Below, piece after piece: positions 10,612-55,691 of a DNA stretch of 64,000 nt; position 1 is the first letter of the stretch, and each line of letters begins with the position of its first letter. The translations under genes were made by a program, and so were the position numbers. The stretch comes from Streptomyces sp. R44 (lineage in GTDB: Bacteria; Actinomycetota; Actinomycetes; Streptomycetales; Streptomycetaceae): assembly GCF_041053105.1 (NCBI RefSeq), contig NZ_CP163444.1, positions 1,364,001 through 1,428,000 of the forward strand, read 5' to 3'. Under the pieces are notes generated by a model, which saw only the letters and a list, made by a program, of their open reading frames with translations, had not been told where the DNA came from and did not search any database.

Positions 10612-11638
10612 AGCCGCGCGGGGCCAGGACGATCCAGGTCTGGCCCGGGGCGAAGGGCAGGGGCTTTCCGGCCGGGGTGGCGAAGGTGGTGCCGGACGCG
10701 GCCGAGGGGCGGGACCAGCGGGCCTCGTAGGCGCGTCCGTCGCGCAGGACGAGCGCCGTACCGCTGCCCACGGTCTCGCTGTACGGGGAGACCGAGCCGA
10801 AGCGGTCGTGGAAGCGCGAGGGACGGATCGTGACGCGCTGGACGACGACCGTCTCCGGGGTGAGCGGGCCGGTGTCGGTGGCACGGGCCTGGCGGCCGTC
10901 CATGGCCACCCGCCAGGCGTGGTCGGCGGCGGACCACGTGAAGGTGTAGCGGGCCGCCGGGTAGCGGACGGCCGAGGTCTTCACCGGGGTGCCGCCGGGC
11001 GGGGCGGGACCGAAGCGGAAGCCGATGTCCCGCGGGTCGTCGGCGCCCGGGGCGGCCGCGAGGGCGCGGCCGGGGCGCAGGTACAGGTTGTGCGGGACGG
11101 GGCGGTCCGCCGAGCGCCGGAAGGCCTGGGGTGTGGTGCCCTCCGTGACGAGGTGGAGGGGCGCGGCCCGCAGCAGCGGGTTGAGGGCCGACTGGGCGCC
11201 GGAGTAGGCGAGGACGGGGTGGCCGAAGTCGCTTAGCAGGGCGATGTCGGATTCTCGGGCGCTGCGGACGGGGCCGGTGAGGGCGGGGAGGTGGGAGGAG
11301 TAGACGGCCATGAGCCGGGTCACTCCGCCCTCGACCTGTTCGACGTAGACGAGGTCGGCCGCGCCGAGTCCGGTGTGGGGGCGGGCCGCCGGCACGTTGT
11401 CGAGCTTCACGGCCAGGACGGGGGCCGGCCGGGCAGGGAGTCCCGTGAAGGGCGAGAGGCCGGTGCGCGTGGGGGCGGGCGTCGTGGGGGCGGGCGTCGT
11501 GGCGGGCGCGGTCGTCGGCGTGGGGCTGGGCTCCGACGGGCCCGAGCCGGAGCAGCCGTGGAGCCCGGCCGCCGTCAGCGCGCACAGCAGCGCGGTGAGG
11601 ACGCGGCCGGGGCGCCTGACCCCGCGCTCGCCTGTCAT
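10610..11638 (-). CDS. DUF3048 domain lipoprotein
   Basis: A 342-residue exported lipoprotein. Residues 1-29 form a type-II signal peptide with lipobox LHGC (lipidated C29), followed by a Pro/Thr-rich linker of about 30 residues containing PAPTTPAPT-like repeats. The rest matches the DUF3048 pattern, with N-terminal LAVKLDNVPAARPHTGL, central GPVRSARESDI and later PHNLYL. Structure and role are unknown; homologues such as YerB are cell-surface proteins. The start at 11638 is chosen because GGGGGAG sits 6 bases upstream; a GTG at 11653 overlaps that SD and is less likely. It is monocistronic, divergent from the acyltransferase gene. Confidence 0.88.
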   Translation of the reverse strand: MTGERGVRRPGRVLTALLCALTAAGLHGCSGSGPSEPSPTPTTAPATTPAPTTPAPTRTGLSPFTGLPARPAPVLAVKLDNVPAARPHTGLGAADLVYVEQVEGGVTRLMAVYSSHLPALTGPVRSARESDIALLSDFGHPVLAYSGAQSALNPLLRAAPLHLVTEGTTPQAFRRSADRPVPHNLYLRPGRALAAAPGADDPRDIGFRFGPAPPGGTPVKTSAVRYPAARYTFTWSAADHAWRVAMDGRQARATDTGPLTPETVVVQRVTIRPSRFHDRFGSVSPYSETVGSGTALVLRDGRAYEARWSRPSAASGTTFATPAGKPLPFAPGQTWIVLAPRG

Positions 11639-11717
11639 GTGACGCTCCCCCACCAGTGGACCACGGGCGCGCGCGGGGATACAACGGGGCGTGACGGACG
11701 ACGAACGGGGGTCGCGC

Positions 11718-12401
11718 GTGTTCTACCAGCTGATGAAGTACGTCCTGCTCGGACCGCTCCTCAGGCTGCTCTTCCGGCCGCGGATCGAGGGGCTCGAACA
11801 CATCCCGGAGGAGGGGGCCGCGATCGTCGCGGGCAATCACCTCTCCTTCTCCGACCACTTCCTGATGCCGGTCGTGCTCGACCGGCGGATCACCTTCCTC
11901 GCGAAGCAGGAGTACTTCACGGGGCCGGGGCTCAAGGGCCGGTTGACGGCCGCCTTCTTCCGGGCCGCCGGGCAGATCCCGGTGGACCGGTCGGGGAAGG
12001 AGGCCGGCAAGGCGGCGATCCGGGAGGGGCTCGGCGTCCTCGACCGGGGCGAGCTGCTCGGGATCTATCCCGAGGGGACGCGTTCGCACGACGGCCGGCT
12101 CTACAAGGGCAAGGTGGGGGTGGCGGTGATGGCGCTGACGGCCGGGGTGCCGGTGGTGCCGTGCGCGATGGTGGGGACCTTCGAGATCCAGCCGCCGGGG
12201 AAGGTCGTGCCGAGGATCCGCCGGGTCACCATCCGGTTCGGGGCACCGCTGGACTTCTCCCGGTTCGCCGGGTCGGCGGGTGAGAAGGCCGTGGTCCGCG
12301 CGGTGACGGACGAGATCATGTACGAGTACGTGGACGAGTACGCGGCGGTGGTGAAGGCCGCGGAGTCCGCCTCGGAGAAGTTCCCGGACGGGGAACGCTG
12401 A
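11718..12401 (+). CDS. 1-acyl-sn-glycerol-3-phosphate acyltransferase (PlsC family)
   Basis: A 227-residue PlsC-type acyltransferase for phospholipid synthesis at the membrane. The catalytic HX4D box is NHLSFSDHF (His and Asp invariant), FLAKQEYF and PVDRSG form the glycerol-phosphate region, and YPEGTRS is the substrate-binding block III. The start was set at the GTG at 11718, since homologues begin MFYxxxKYVLLGP exactly there; a GTG nine codons upstream (11691) is possible. The gene is divergent from the DUF3048 lipoprotein and followed after 64 bases by an epimerase on the same strand. Streptomycetes have several PlsC paralogues, so which acyl acceptor is used is open. Confidence 0.9.
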   Translation: MFYQLMKYVLLGPLLRLLFRPRIEGLEHIPEEGAAIVAGNHLSFSDHFLMPVVLDRRITFLAKQEYFTGPGLKGRLTAAFFRAAGQIPVDRSGKEAGKAAIREGLGVLDRGELLGIYPEGTRSHDGRLYKGKVGVAVMALTAGVPVVPCAMVGTFEIQPPGKVVPRIRRVTIRFGAPLDFSRFAGSAGEKAVVRAVTDEIMYEYVDEYAAVVKAAESASEKFPDGER

Positions 12402-12465
12402 GGGCGGATCCGCGCACGGCGCAATTCTCTGTGCCGCCGCCCCGGGCGGCCGTAGCGTCCCGGTC

Positions 12466-13500
12466 ATGACCAAGGGAAACGCGTTCGTGCTGGGTGCGAC
12501 GGGACAGGTGGGGCGGGCGGCCGTGCGGGCGCTCGTCGCGGACGGCTGGGAGGTGACGGCCGCCTCGCGGGGCGGTGCCGGGGACGACAGGTGGCCGGAC
12601 GGGGTCCGGTCGGTCGCGCTCGACCGGAACGAGGAGGGGGCGCTGGCGGCGGCGCTCGGTGAGGGCACCGACGTCCTGGTGGACGTGGTGGCGTACGACG
12701 CCGGGCACGCCGCCCAGTTGACCGGGCTCGCGGACCGGATCGGCTCGGCGGTGGTGATCTCCAGCGGGGCGGTGTACGAGGACGCGCAGGGGCGCAGCTT
12801 CGACACCCAGGACCAGCCGGACGGCTTCCCGCGCTATCCGGTGCCGATCCCGGAGTCGCTGGCGACGGTGGCCCCGGGCGACGGCACGTACAGCACGCGG
12901 AAGGTCGCCCTGGAGCAGGCGCTGACGGCGGCCGGGGAGCTGCTGCCGACGACGCTGCTGCGCGCGGGCTCGATCCACGGCCCGCACTGCCGGTCGCCGC
13001 GGGAGCTGTTCTTCGTGAAACGGGCCCTCGACCGGCGGCCGGTGCGGGTGCTCGCGTACAACGGCCTGTCGCAGTTCCACCCGGCGAACGTGGACAATCT
13101 GGCCGAGCTGATCCGGCTCGCGGCGGCGCGGCCGGGCACGCGGGTCCTCAACGCCGGCGATCCGGACGTGCCGACGACCGCGGAGATCTCCGCGGCGGTG
13201 GACGCGGTCGTGGGCGTGGAGAGCGAGCTCGTGCTCGTGGACGGGCCGCCGCCGGTGGGCATCGTGGGCGAGACGCCGTGGGGCCTGGACGCGCCGATCG
13301 TGTACGACATGACGGCGGCGGAGCGGGAGCTGGGCTACCGGCCGGTGGTGGGGTACGCGGAGTCGCTGTCGGCGACGGTGGAGTGGCTGACGGAGCGGCT
13401 CGCGGGCCGGGGGTGGCTGGAGGCGTTCCCGAACCTGGCGAAGTACGGGCAGGACTGGTTCGACTACGCGGCCGAGGACGCCTGGCTCGCCTCGCGTTGA
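12466..13500 (+). CDS. NAD(P)-binding epimerase/dehydratase-like protein
   Basis: A 344-residue extended short-chain dehydrogenase. The Rossmann dinucleotide loop GATGQVGRA is at residues 9-17, with the second-strand basic end near SRGG. The catalytic-type YSTRK is around residue 144, and a serine of SSGAVYED precedes it, so a Ser-Tyr-Lys arrangement is possible. The family includes nucleotide-sugar epimerases and reductases; the specific substrate is not recognisable. It lies downstream of the PlsC gene and converges on the tripeptidyl aminopeptidase gene across a terminator. Confidence 0.85.
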   Translation: MTKGNAFVLGATGQVGRAAVRALVADGWEVTAASRGGAGDDRWPDGVRSVALDRNEEGALAAALGEGTDVLVDVVAYDAGHAAQLTGLADRIGSAVVISSGAVYEDAQGRSFDTQDQPDGFPRYPVPIPESLATVAPGDGTYSTRKVALEQALTAAGELLPTTLLRAGSIHGPHCRSPRELFFVKRALDRRPVRVLAYNGLSQFHPANVDNLAELIRLAAARPGTRVLNAGDPDVPTTAEISAAVDAVVGVESELVLVDGPPPVGIVGETPWGLDAPIVYDMTAAERELGYRPVVGYAESLSATVEWLTERLAGRGWLEAFPNLAKYGQDWFDYAAEDAWLASR

Positions 13501-50182: not shown

Positions 50183-51347
50183 ATGACGCGATCCGTTCAG
50201 GCGCTCGCCTACGTCCGCCCGTCCGCGCTGGAGTCCACGGGCTCCGGCCAGCTGCTCGGCGTGGAGACGGCGGGGGGCCTGACGCCCACGGGGGCGCAGG
50301 CCCATCCGCGCTTCTTCTCGGGCTTCCTGGCCGCACCGCGGATCGCCGCCCGGGGTCTGCTGGCGGTCGCCGACGTGGCCGCGGCCCGCTACCACCAGCG
50401 GATGCGGCCCGGCTCGCTCGACCCGGTGGTGACGGGGAGCGGGGACCGGCTGCGGTTCGAGTCCTTCTCCGGCTGCGGCGGGGTGTACGCGCGCCTGGAC
50501 GTGCTCGACGAAGGACTCGGCGGTACGGAGACGGGGCACGGCACGACCCATGTCGACGTGAACGCCCCGCTGCGCGAGGCCCTGTCCCGGATGACCGGGG
50601 ACGATCCGCCGCATCTGCGGGTCGGCCCCGAGGAACTGGCCGTGACCACGCTCGCCGGCGCGGTCGTGGAGAAGAAGGTCCCGCTGCCGGACCGCTGGCT
50701 GCGGGGCTTCGCGGAGGCGCAGGTCGCCTCGGCCCGCTTCGACCTGCGGGCCGAGCTCGGCGGGCCGGAGGCCGTCCGGTTCCTGCGGTCCCTGCCGCGG
50801 GGGCGGGCCCGGGGGCGCGGCCCGCTGTGGGTCGCGCAGTCCGGCCGGGCCCTGCGCCCGACGACCCGGCCGGGCGCGGGCGCGGTGTGCCTTCCGGGGC
50901 CGGACCGGCTCGCCGCCCTGGAGCGGGTACTGCGGTACGCGACGGGGCTGCGGGTGTACGGCCCGGTGCCCGACGGGACCCTGGCCACGGCGAGCGCCTG
51001 GGAGGCGACCCTGCCGGGCATGCGGCTCACGTGGACGCTGTCGCCGGACCCCGCGCGGGGCTTCTCCGGCGAGGGCGGTGTCCTGGAGGCGCTGGCGACG
51101 GAGGAGGCGGCGCGGGACGCCGAGCCTGCCGGCGGACGGGGCGGTGGAGCTCGACGGGGAGCTGGCCGCGGTGACCTCGGGCGAACGGCGCTACCGCGTG
51201 CGCGAGTCGTCCGGGGCGCTGACCTGCACGTGCCCGTGGTGGGCGGACCACCAGGGCCGCCGGGGCCCGTGCAAGCACGCGCTCGCGGTCCGGATGGCAC
51301 GCCGGGGCGCGACGGCCACAGCGACGACCACAGCGGGGGCGTCGTGA
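50183..51347 (+). pseudogene. SWIM zinc-finger protein gene with a one-base frameshift
   Basis: The first 313 codons (from the ATG at 50183; MTRSVQALAYVRPSAL) encode a streptomycete SWIM-protein N-terminus. The C-terminal part of the same protein, including the zinc motif CTCPWWADHQGRRGPCKH, lies in the next frame (+1) and ends at TGA 51345-51347. Removing one C of the CC at 51125-51126 joins them perfectly, reading RDAELPADGAVELDG, a 387-residue protein of expected length. The C is extra, or two bases are lost. In the present sequence the first frame instead runs on into the next gene. It could be a sequencing artefact or a true lesion. Confidence 0.85.
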
Positions 51348-54166
51348 GCGCGGAGGTGCGGGCGGAACAGCAGGGCGTGGAGAGCGGGACGGGGGACGGC
51401 ATGGGGAACGGGACAGGGGGCGCCATGGGGAACGGGCCGGGGAAGGACGTGGGGACGGGGATGAGCAAGGTGGAGGACGTGGCTGCCGACACGCCGCAGG
51501 GGCCGGATTCGGGAACCGGCGCGGAGCGCCTGTCCGGTGTCGACCGGCTGCTCGCCGCGGTGCTCGCCGGGGAGTCCGACCGGGTGCCGGGACTTCTGGA
51601 GCCGCTCGACGCCGCCGAGCGCAAGGTGGCGTTCGCACGGCTGAAGGTGCTGCGCGCCGAGGTGCGTGCCGGGAAGTGGGCGACACCCCCGCACGTGCCG
51701 AACCGCATCCGCAGCGCGCTGTACGTGGCGGGCGCCGGCTGTCTCCCGACGCCGGCGGGCGCCGCGAGCTGGCTCGGCGCGCGCGACCTCCAGATCTGGG
51801 AGGAGGACAAGCCCCTGGCCCTCGCGGCGCTCGGCGATCCCGACCCGGAGTGGGCCGCGGACCTGGCGGTGCGTCTGGCCGGGCGCCGGGCGGTGGCGGA
51901 GAACAGCTACCCCCTCCTCCACGGGCTGATCGTCCGCGCCGGACACACCGTTCCCCCGACCGACGGCTACGTCACCGGGTGGACCTGGCACCTCACCGAC
52001 GACCGGCTGGTGGAGCGGCTCCGGGAGGACCCGCAGACACCCGCCCTGGTGGCGCACGCGCTCGCGATGGCCGAGCCCCCCGAGCGGCTGACCCGGCCGG
52101 TCGGGCGCCGGCCGGAGAGGCACTGGCCGTCGGCGCTGCGGACGCTCGTCGAGGAAGGGGTCCTGGACCGTACGCGGGTCCTGGACCTGTGCGTGTCCCG
52201 GCTGCTGCGCGGCGGCCTCCTCCGGAACCTGCGCCTCCCGCTGGAGACGGTGCGGCTCCTGGCGCCGGACGCGGAGGAGCTGCGGGCGCGGATCCCGGAC
52301 TGGGTCGGGATCGCGGCCGACGCGCCGTCGGTCGTCGCCGGATACGCCCAGGACGTCCTGGTGGAGCTCGCCTCGGCAGGGTCGGTGCCGGTCGGGGCGC
52401 TGGCGGAGATGACGTCCGGCGTTCTCTTCCGTACCGAGAAGAAGCTGGTGCGGGCCCAGTTGGCGCTGGTCGGCAAGGTGCTCGCGCGGGAGCCGGGCGC
52501 GGCCGGGGAGCTGCTGCCCGCGGTGACGGAGGCCTTCGGGAACGAGGACACCGATCTCCAGGAGCGGGCCCTCAAGCTGGTGGGCCGTCATCTGGACGCC
52601 GTGGACGAGGGCGTGCGCCGCGAGCTGGCCGAGGCCGCCGGGCTGTTGAGCCCGACGCACCGGCAGGCCGCCGGGGAGCTGTTCGGCGCGGACCTGGAGC
52701 CGGAGCCGGCACCCCCGTACGAGGAGATCCTGCCGCCGGTGCCCGGGGCGCAACTGGTCCCGCCCCCGGCGACGACGGTCGAGGAGCTGGTGGCCGAGCT
52801 GGTGGTGAAGCGGCTCTCGGAGGACCCCGTGGCGTTCGAGCGGGCGCTCGACGGCCTGGTGCGGCACGCGCACCGGGACCGGGCGGCGGTCGAGGAGGCG
52901 GTGCGGGAGGCTTTCCCCTCGGCTCCGTGGGAGCAGCGGACCCACTACTTCACGCACACCGCCCAGGGGATCCACGTGGTGCTCGCGGGGGTCCTCGGGC
53001 TGCTCGACCCGACGCTCGTCGAGTTCCATCGGACCAAGGGGCACGGCGCGGACTCCTGTCTCCATCAGGCGCTGTCGGCGGTCCTCGACGCCCGTCTGTG
53101 GGAGGCCGCCGCCCTCGTCGGCACCGACGCGCTGCCGTTCCTCCTCGCCACACCCACCTGGCACACGGGTGCGATCGACCCGCTGGTCCTGGTGGAGCGG
53201 CTGCGGCAGTACCGGGAGGCGGACGTCGAGCCCGCCCCGGCCGATCTCGCGCAGGCCCTGCTCCGGGTGCCGCGGGCCGATCCTTCGGCGGGGCGGGCGG
53301 CCGGGGAGGCGGATGCGCTCGGCACCGCGGCCGGCCGGGGGCTCGCCGCCTGGCTGAGGGAAGAGGCGGCCGTGGGCGCGACCGTACGGTTCCTGCGGCG
53401 GGACGAGGACAAGACCCTGCGGCGGTACCACCTGGTCGACCGGCTCGTGGTCGACGCCGGCGAGCACCGGGCGGTGCGGGCGGAGTTCCCGCCCGCCTTC
53501 CAGTGGCTCGGTGGCGCCCTGGAGGCGACCCCCCGTCGCTGCCACCACTGGATCGAGGACCGCGCGCAGTGGGCTCCCGTGCTGCCGGCCGACCGTGAGC
53601 TGCTCGCGGCCTGTCTCCTGCCGACGCTCGTGGGTGCCGAGGGGGACGCGCGCGGCGCGACCGAACCGCTGACCGCGCTGGTCGAGGCCGAGGGCCCGGT
53701 GGGCCGGGCGGTGCTGCTGGCCCTGGCGTGCGGTCTCGGCTGCGTGGACGCGGACGACCGGCTGCGCGCGGTGGACGCCGTGCTCGTCCTGGCGGCGCGG
53801 GGCGAGCTGGACGCCCGTGGGCTCGGTGAGGAGCTGGCGTGGCTGGTCGCGGAGGGCTCGGTCAAGCCGAACCGGCTGGCGGACGCGGCCCGTACGGCGG
53901 CCGCCACGGGGGCGTACGGGACGGTCTGGGCGATCCTCGGGGCGCTGCTCGCGGCGCTGCCGGCGCAGGCGAAGCCGGTCCGCGGGCTCGGCGAGATCCT
54001 GGCGGTCGCCGCCGACTGTGTGGAGCGGTGCGGGGCGCGCGGTGAGGTCTCCGGGCTCGATGCGCTCGCCTCCGGGCGGGGTTCCTCGCAGCTGATGGTG
54101 CAGGCCAAGCGGCTGCTGAGCGCACTCCACCAGGGAGCCGATCAGCCTCTGACAGAAACGGCCTGA
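51344..54166 (+). CDS. DUF6493-like large protein, coupled to the SWIM gene
   Basis: A 940-residue soluble protein starting at a GTG that overlaps the SWIM stop (GTGA). The first 60 residues are low-complexity Gly/Met-rich (GDGMGNGTGGAMGNGPG). The remainder is helical, with repeated leucine-rich units resembling HEAT/TPR solenoids (AERLSGVDRLLAAVLAGESD onward; ALVAHALAMAEPPE; TLVEEGVLDRTRVLDLC). The family assignment to DUF6493 is from pattern memory. With the intact overlap, the SWIM and DUF6493 proteins would be produced together; their joint function is unknown. A stem-loop follows. Confidence 0.75.
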   Translation: MSAEVRAEQQGVESGTGDGMGNGTGGAMGNGPGKDVGTGMSKVEDVAADTPQGPDSGTGAERLSGVDRLLAAVLAGESDRVPGLLEPLDAAERKVAFARLKVLRAEVRAGKWATPPHVPNRIRSALYVAGAGCLPTPAGAASWLGARDLQIWEEDKPLALAALGDPDPEWAADLAVRLAGRRAVAENSYPLLHGLIVRAGHTVPPTDGYVTGWTWHLTDDRLVERLREDPQTPALVAHALAMAEPPERLTRPVGRRPERHWPSALRTLVEEGVLDRTRVLDLCVSRLLRGGLLRNLRLPLETVRLLAPDAEELRARIPDWVGIAADAPSVVAGYAQDVLVELASAGSVPVGALAEMTSGVLFRTEKKLVRAQLALVGKVLAREPGAAGELLPAVTEAFGNEDTDLQERALKLVGRHLDAVDEGVRRELAEAAGLLSPTHRQAAGELFGADLEPEPAPPYEEILPPVPGAQLVPPPATTVEELVAELVVKRLSEDPVAFERALDGLVRHAHRDRAAVEEAVREAFPSAPWEQRTHYFTHTAQGIHVVLAGVLGLLDPTLVEFHRTKGHGADSCLHQALSAVLDARLWEAAALVGTDALPFLLATPTWHTGAIDPLVLVERLRQYREADVEPAPADLAQALLRVPRADPSAGRAAGEADALGTAAGRGLAAWLREEAAVGATVRFLRRDEDKTLRRYHLVDRLVVDAGEHRAVRAEFPPAFQWLGGALEATPRRCHHWIEDRAQWAPVLPADRELLAACLLPTLVGAEGDARGATEPLTALVEAEGPVGRAVLLALACGLGCVDADDRLRAVDAVLVLAARGELDARGLGEELAWLVAEGSVKPNRLADAARTAAATGAYGTVWAILGALLAALPAQAKPVRGLGEILAVAADCVERCGARGEVSGLDALASGRGSSQLMVQAKRLLSALHQGADQPLTETA

Positions 54167-54254: not shown

Positions 54255-55691
54255 ATGACCGATGTGACGTCCTCGAAGAGCACCCGCCGTCCGCACCACT
54301 GGCGGCACGACCTGATCGAGCTCGCCGCCATGTTCACCGCCGTGGTGGTGGCCGACTCGATCGCCAAGACCATCGCCAAGGGCCCCGACGGCCCCTCCCT
54401 CCTGGTCTTCTCGGCGATCGCGCTGGTCGCCACCGCCGCGTTCCACACCTGGTGGGCGCGGCGGCACAGTCATGCCAGCCATGCCCCGCCCGCCGGTGAG
54501 ACCGACGGGCGCGCCACCGCGGAGGCCGTGACCTCACCCGTACGCGACGAGAAGGAGGAGTCCGCGCCGCCCGCCGAGACGACGCTGTGGCGGATGCGGA
54601 CCACCGTCGCCGACACCCCGGGCAGCCTGGCCGCGCTGTGCACGGTCCTCGCCCGCCTGGGCGTGGACATCCTCACCCTCCAGACCCACCCGCTCGGCGA
54701 CGGCACGGTCGACGAGTTCCTGCTGCGCGCCCCCGCCGACCTCTCCGCGCAGGCCCTCGCCCGCGAGACGGCGGCGGCCGGCGGCCGCGACACCTGGACC
54801 GAGCGGGCCGACGCCCACGACCTGGTGGACACCCCCACCCGGGTCCTCGGCCTGGCCACCCGTACCGCCCTCGACGCGGCCGAACTGCCGCTCGCGCTGC
54901 GCCAGCTGCTGGGCCGCTGCACCCTCCACTCGGTGCCGGCGGTCTCCCTCACCGGCCGCCCCACCGGCGAACAGGCCCCGGTCGAGGGCGTCCTGGAGGA
55001 GACCGTGATGCGGCTGCGCGACCCGCACGGCGGCACCCTCATCATCGAGCGGCCCTATCTGCCGTTCACCCCGACCGAGTTCGCCCGGGCCCGCGCCCTC
55101 GTCGAGCTCGACGCCCGGCTCGGCCCCCGTGTGCCGCGCAGCCAGGACGTGCTGACCCTGCCCGAGGGCAACGAGATCACCGTCCGCCGGGCCGACCAGC
55201 GCGACCTGGCCGCCGCGCGCGCCATGCACGACCGCTGCTCGGCCCGCACGCTGGGCCTGCGCTACCACGGCCCGGTCGGCGACGCCGAACGCTATCTCGA
55301 CCACCTGCTCAGCCCCCGCTTCGGCCGCACCCTCGCCGTCCAGACGGCCTCGGGCCGGCTCGTCGCCCTCGGCCACCTGCTGTGGGACGGCGACGAGACC
55401 GAGGTCGCCCTCCTCGTCGAGGACGACTGGCAGCGGCGCGGCATCGGCTCCGAGCTCCTCGGCCGCCTGGTGGCGATGGCCGAGGAGACCGGCTGCGACA
55501 GCGTGTACGCCGTGACGCAGTCCTCCAACACGGGGATGGTGGCCGCGATGCGGGCGCTGAACCTCCCCCTCGACTACCAGATCGAGGAGGGCACCCTGGT
55601 CATCACCGCCCGGCTGGCCCCGGCACCGCGACCGGCCGCCCGGACGCAGCAGGAGCAGCCGCACGAAGGGGCGCGCCGGGCGGAGCGCTGA
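54255..55691 (+). CDS. Membrane-anchored ACT-GNAT protein (amino-acid-regulated acetyltransferase type)
   Basis: A 478-residue protein in three parts. Two hydrophobic helices lie near residues 20-65 (DLIELAAMFTAVVVADS and SLLVFSAIALVATAAF). An ACT domain follows at about residues 113-180 (MRTTVADTPGSLAALCTVLA). A GNAT domain occupies residues 300-450 (LPEGNEITVRRADQRDLAAA; the acetyl-CoA loop is WQRRGIGSELLGRL). ACT-GNAT proteins characterised in actinomycetes are lysine acetyltransferases whose activity depends on amino acids bound to ACT. The two-helix anchor here would place that activity at the membrane, which I have not seen described. It converges with the lyase gene, overlapping by 89 bases. 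Confidence 0.85.
   Translation: MTDVTSSKSTRRPHHWRHDLIELAAMFTAVVVADSIAKTIAKGPDGPSLLVFSAIALVATAAFHTWWARRHSHASHAPPAGETDGRATAEAVTSPVRDEKEESAPPAETTLWRMRTTVADTPGSLAALCTVLARLGVDILTLQTHPLGDGTVDEFLLRAPADLSAQALARETAAAGGRDTWTERADAHDLVDTPTRVLGLATRTALDAAELPLALRQLLGRCTLHSVPAVSLTGRPTGEQAPVEGVLEETVMRLRDPHGGTLIIERPYLPFTPTEFARARALVELDARLGPRVPRSQDVLTLPEGNEITVRRADQRDLAAARAMHDRCSARTLGLRYHGPVGDAERYLDHLLSPRFGRTLAVQTASGRLVALGHLLWDGDETEVALLVEDDWQRRGIGSELLGRLVAMAEETGCDSVYAVTQSSNTGMVAAMRALNLPLDYQIEEGTLVITARLAPAPRPAARTQQEQPHEGARRAER

Follow-up and report, generated by a model that had tools for sequence, protein, structure and literature searches.

The gene that begins at position 50183 of the window, which is the whole stretch of 64,000 nucleotides of Streptomyces sp. 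R44 that was analysed, is very probably an ordinary SWIM zinc-finger gene broken by a net loss of 221 bases, most likely through repeat-mediated slippage or micro-homology deletion. The lesion is an ordinary kind of gene break, and probably a recent one. This loss removed a winged-helix segment and shifted the reading frame, and the SWIM finger is presumably no longer made. The features of the locus are as follows:

50183..51124, + strand: surviving N-terminal part of a SWIM family protein, 314 codons (open frame; 90–92% identity to the closest homologues)
51125..51126, + strand: deletion junction, with 221 bases of relatives missing (DNA matches break; GFSGEG-to-first-Cys spacing)
51126..51347, + strand: out-of-frame C-terminal remnant with the SWIM zinc finger (Pfam PF04434, 22.9 bits; 58 codons compared)
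51344..54166, + strand: intact downstream DUF7824/DUF7825 gene, 940 aa (Pfam; orthologs beside the SWIM gene; its GTG start overlaps the old SWIM stop)
50183..54166, + strand: long accidental frame of 1327 codons (N-terminal domain followed by about 73 out-of-frame codons and the DUF7824/DUF7825 protein)

Reading frames and the intact form of the gene

From the ATG at 50183, the frame stays open past 51124 to 54166 with no stop in between, while the SWIM motif CTCPWWADHQGRRGPCKH occupies the +1 frame of that strand, with its first Cys codon at 51225 and its last His codon at 51276–51278. The original prediction had placed an N-terminal frame through 51124 and the SWIM motif in the +1 frame, and both were reproduced, as was the overlap between the end of the SWIM frame (TGA, 51345–51347) and the start of the next gene (GTG, 51344). 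The N-terminal frame is not due to chance, since its 314 residues share 90–92% identity with the closest homologues. On the out-of-frame piece, PF04434 (SWIM, CxC...CxH) scored 22.9 bits, above the curated cut-off of 19.6; a whole-genome scan with the same profile (E ≤ 0.001) gave three matches, and the out-of-frame piece was not among them.

For comparison with other genomes, 140 of 143 loci were matched, 116 were distinct after identical copies and the strain's own genome were dropped, and 113 of these had the full N-terminal part. The three left aside were L023, matched from residue 111 onward, and L028, lying at a contig edge, both of which have SWIM in frame, together with L118, which looks broken, its frame ending at residue 153 in a genome (G398) that is 55% complete. 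A second homologue that looks broken is L186 (G454), in which similarity stops at about residue 363, shortly before FHRELPYD. In all 113 full-length loci, the SWIM motif follows in the N-terminal frame before the stop. The distance from GFSGEG to the SWIM motif is 129 residues in 64 loci, 130 in 41, 131 in 5, and 132–134 in 3; in nucleotides, GFSGEG is separated from the first Cys by 166 nt in the window versus 387 nt in those 64 loci and 390–402 nt in the other 49. The final TGA is preceded by A in 97 loci, G in 15, and T in 1, which is the pattern of a stop overlapping the next start. A segment of about 74 codons that the window lacks is absent from none of the 113. That the lesion is particular to this genome, as originally proposed, is borne out by these in-frame motifs and by the lack of any listed match spanning the junction, while the one-base cause assigned to it did not hold.

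The lost part can be placed by an alignment of 36 homologues, in which it sits between the N-terminal domain and the SWIM finger, contains an invariant YFHRELPY, and forms a winged-helix and FHRELPYD segment that is present in all 36 and absent in the window. Winged-helix matches from Pfam to this part are weak but widespread, with DprA_WH found in 35 of 36 homologues (best 7.7e-6) and HTH_24 in 24 of 36, and in the model of an intact homologue the stretch is helical, partly with pLDDT below 50. The original gene belonged to the ordinary SWIM zinc-finger family genes of Streptomyces, was about 450–500 codons long and overlapped the DUF7824/DUF7825 gene, with a predicted PCNA-like N-terminal domain, a winged helix, the conserved FHRELPYD helices, and the SWIM finger. 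It was probably translationally coupled to the DUF7824/DUF7825 gene. The family profile is matched in 10 of 396 genomes of the phylum, two of them only over a short C-terminal stretch with E of about 1e-4.

The deletion junction and the age of the loss

Relative to the syntenic genome G015, one DNA match stops at window position 51125 and the other starts at 51132, 6 bases apart, where G015 has 227 bases, giving a net loss of 221. This junction was read from BLAST coordinates against G015 together with a fixed-offset comparison of close relatives; the automatic alignment misplaced the left flank of the window. When 392 genomes of the genus were searched at the DNA level, the strain's own match covered the whole query, whereas among the matches listed, the N-terminal matches of other genomes ended at query base 954 or earlier, mostly at 941–946 (window 51123–51128), and none from another genome crossed the junction. 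No second intact copy was found in the genome, where the protein search gave one match and the profile search two, both being pieces of this gene. Likewise, no same-species copy, intact or broken, was recognised in genome contigs, the protein database, or plasmids, the best identity being 92% in collections from which very near records may be omitted.

The repeat (G)CTGGTCGCGG, of 10–11 bases, flanks the lost part at a spacing of 222 in 8 of 29 close relatives, which share ancestry and are thus not independent. Ten shared bases were reached in 1.4% of 5800 random same-distance placements in these genes. The longest word common to both ends (6–11 bases) is spaced exactly 222 in 11 of the 29. 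In L045 and L039, the closest in the tree, the repeats are only 9 and 7 bases, though this placement is weakly supported (0.417 and 0.855). The cause would most likely be replication slippage or a micro-homology deletion between short direct repeats about 222 bases apart, and it is because of this flanking repeat that the two halves read seamlessly across the junction. What counts against this best explanation is that repeats spaced 222 apart predict an in-frame loss of 222 bases, leaving one base unexplained. A net loss of 221 can have come about in one imprecise event or by an exact 222-base slippage together with one extra base.

The latter course, in which an exact in-frame 222-base slippage deletion was joined by one extra base at the junction through mutation or a base-calling error, is quite possible without being the probable one; it arises because the net loss is 221 and the flanking repeats lie 222 apart, and it would make the odd base originally reported real but secondary. 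The exact 222 spacing of the longest shared word speaks for it, as does the identity of the junction base. Directly ahead of the right-hand CTG-type codon, 14 of the 16 taxa nearest in the tree (L045 and L039 among them) have G, one (L046) has C, and one has A; a plain 221-base join would carry over G, whereas the window has C. Small private indels also occur in this window. However, two events in one place are demanded, and since C precedes the right-hand repeat in L046 and in several more distant relatives, a single 221-base event is possible as well.

Deletion in the living strain was further weighed against loss in the assembly, in which case the gene of the strain would be intact. This is an improbable reading. 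The lesion is known from a single genome, GC around the junction is 77–81%, and the remnant is without clear decay, as an artefact would also show. On the other side, the genome consists of a single 8.89 Mb contig with a completeness of 100%, and repeats no longer than 11 bases would not collapse in assembly. The private 1–2-base indels of the window, 12 compared with 9, 2, 10, 24, and 7 in five relatives, are within range. In a check of the 64 kb across six regions, the window had the most candidate frame breaks (9 vs. 5, 5, 6, 5, and 4), which favours an artefact in that base errors are therefore possible; those seen against at least two genomes numbered 4 in the window vs. 1, 2, 0, 2, and 1. 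In the downstream gene, a seemingly private +1 at 53967 was rejected, being compensated nearby. Elsewhere in the window, a minus-strand gene at 560–2505 is one frame in G015 and G167 and has a frame change near 1939 in the window, and a minus-strand gene at 10613–12806 is one frame in G292 and G167 and has a frame change near 11681 in the window. G015 also breaks relative to G292 and G167, possibly in the same gene as 10613–12806.

The age of the loss was approached through the substitution pattern of the 58 remnant codons. The ratio of dN in the C-terminal part to dN in the N-terminal part is 2.13 in the window, the second highest of 27 taxa (0.94–3.13 in the other 26); this comparison left out 3 of the 29 close relatives (L049, L121, and L127), whose motif pattern did not fit. 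Median dN/dS of the window is somewhat raised in both parts compared with the values among relatives, at 0.34 vs. 0.215 in the C-terminal part and 0.17 vs. 0.125 in the N-terminal part. Conserved columns are changed in 1 of 37 positions of the C-terminal part (rank 9 of 36) and in 7 of 238 positions of the N-terminal part (rank 7 of 36, median 2). Decay of the SWIM remnant was thus not confirmed, as relaxation of the tail alone is not clear when both parts are somewhat raised. The remnant has kept most of its constraint, which makes the loss either recent or an artefact.

The downstream gene and the joined reading frame

A DUF7824/DUF7825 ortholog lies beside the SWIM gene on the same strand in 79 of 80 loci from named organisms, the remaining one (L038) ending at a contig edge, and the upstream neighbour, a PhoD-like gene, is retained in 61 of the 80. 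The stop of the downstream gene has the same position as in four of five aligned relatives. This DUF7824/DUF7825 neighbour (51344–54166) evolves fast, with a median best-match identity of 44% over 79 loci vs. 69% over 68 loci for the next gene (54255–55691). In the window, positions 50183 and 51344 share one reading frame, and the N-terminal frame, which now continues into the DUF7824/DUF7825 gene, has lost the old stop-start overlap. Ribosomes would now either make a fusion of the clamp domain with the DUF7824 protein or start at the downstream GTG. The long frame from 50183 to 54166 is accidental.

Programmed frameshifting, or a fusion of the clamp domain with the DUF7824 protein kept by selection, is a highly unlikely explanation. 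It can draw on the absence of any stop from 50183 to 54166 and on the long proteins P0123 and P0124 described below, but stop-free long frames are common at this GC content and are many among the open reading frames of the window. The junction is common to no listed relative, the roughly 73 linker codons are out-of-frame sequence, and a programmed ribosomal frameshift was rejected since the frame change it should conserve occurs in 0 of the 113 full-length homologue loci. A search for fusions among proteins of about 730–2320 residues with the N-terminal domain, in which 7982 candidates were scored, yielded two long proteins, P0123 and P0124, neither of them an intact fusion in the same order. 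P0123 (1274 aa) is a natural fusion in reverse order, with DUF6493 (1e-19), DUF7825 (9e-5), and SWIM (2.9e-6). P0124 (994 aa) has the same order as the window, starting as a SWIM protein and passing into one that resembles the DUF gene product of the window (E 2e-8); it is 46% identical to P0003 in the first part and 48% around the SWIM motif, though out of frame in places. Both proteins speak for a putative working partnership of the SWIM and DUF families.

The original claim, which put the whole lesion down to one extra base in the CC at 51125–51126 and gave the true protein 387 residues, fits the meeting of both frames there one base out of step but can practically be dismissed, since about 74 codons of relatives are missing (net 221 bases vs. 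G015), no full-length locus lacks this segment (0 of 113), and the repaired protein, which would miss the whole winged-helix/FHRELPYD segment, is the counterpart of none of these relatives, the 120 listed of 2078 database homologues all being 423–481 aa long. The repaired protein looks seamless because in many close relatives a similar L-V-A stretch is encoded at each end of the missing segment. A seamless-looking one-base explanation can thus mask a loss of 221 bases, and only relatives reveal it.

The predicted clamp fold and known systems

The finding worth keeping is that a common Streptomyces protein family is predicted to have a clamp-like fold. In an AlphaFold2 model of residues 1–294, residues of about 43–290 (within window 50183–51064) are predicted to adopt a PCNA-like sliding-clamp fold. 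Matches of the N-terminal model by Foldseek and VIA-align are PCNA and beta clamps, where VIA-align only re-ranks the Foldseek matches and other folds are possible. The repeated clamp-domain fold is seen in predicted models only, with mean pLDDT of 65.8 and 70.6. At the sequence level, no clamp family was among the Pfam matches of the 36 homologues under filters that drop most weak matches, hhalign of the N-terminal domain against 30 DnaN-like proteins gave a probability of 0.5%, local alignment to DnaN was no better than shuffles, and no PDB sequence matched at E ≤ 0.1. Sequence homology of the domain to DnaN was not found, there being neither a profile nor a pairwise signal; a recognisable clamp sequence profile was likewise lacking in a profile comparison made with DnaN-like proteins. 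A second DNA_pol3_beta (DnaN-like) gene lies at G000:C1:6038552-6038902 besides the main one at C1:4350349, and second DNA_pol3_beta matches are also found in several relatives.

The intact protein may serve as a DNA-associated scaffold with the shape of a clamp, binding nucleic acid or a partner through its wHTH and SWIM modules and working with the DUF7824/DUF7825 protein. More tentatively, the models raise the idea that Streptomyces and some other Actinomycetota carry a second clamp type besides DnaN, made of a two-domain PCNA fold, a winged helix, and a SWIM finger. It would work with a DUF7824/DUF7825 protein translated alongside it, perhaps as a clamp for repair or checkpoints in the manner of RAD9-RAD1-HUS1; this strain would just have lost the DNA-reading modules, leaving a clamp–DUF7824 fusion. 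If the N-terminal domain is truly of the PCNA type, a common Streptomyces gene pair becomes a candidate bacterial DNA-clamp system, and if the clamp reading is true, this strain offers a natural mutant in that system.

No study of the SWIM-family/DUF7824–DUF7825 gene pair was found in the open-access literature, nor any paper there on DUF6493 or linking SWIM proteins with PCNA, sliding clamps, winged helix, or MoxR in bacteria. In the excerpts concerned, SWIM appears as a figure-legend abbreviation (PMC10910872), 'swim' occurs as a word in a reference (PMC4858521), and the evolution of clamps is treated with no mention of Streptomyces or zinc (PMC8357120).

The nearest relatives of the broken gene are the Streptomyces 'SWIM zinc finger family proteins' P0003 (470 aa) and P0006 (469 aa), to which its N-terminal 314 residues are 91–92% identical. 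The SWIM motif and the stop overlapping the start of the next gene are shared with them; unlike them, the window has its SWIM motif out of frame and is without the wHTH segment. Possible kin of the SWIM gene are E. coli yehQ and its neighbours. The DUF6493-SWIM fusion P0123 joins the same kinds of partner as the window pair in one chain, but in reverse order and with the SWIM part intact, and its partner is weakly similar to the DUF protein of the window (91-residue match, E 3e-6). PCNA (archaeal, eukaryotic, and RAD9) and the DnaN beta clamp share 6–14% identity with the N-terminal domain among the 50 structural matches listed, and unlike these clamps, the intact SWIM homologues also carry wHTH and SWIM modules.
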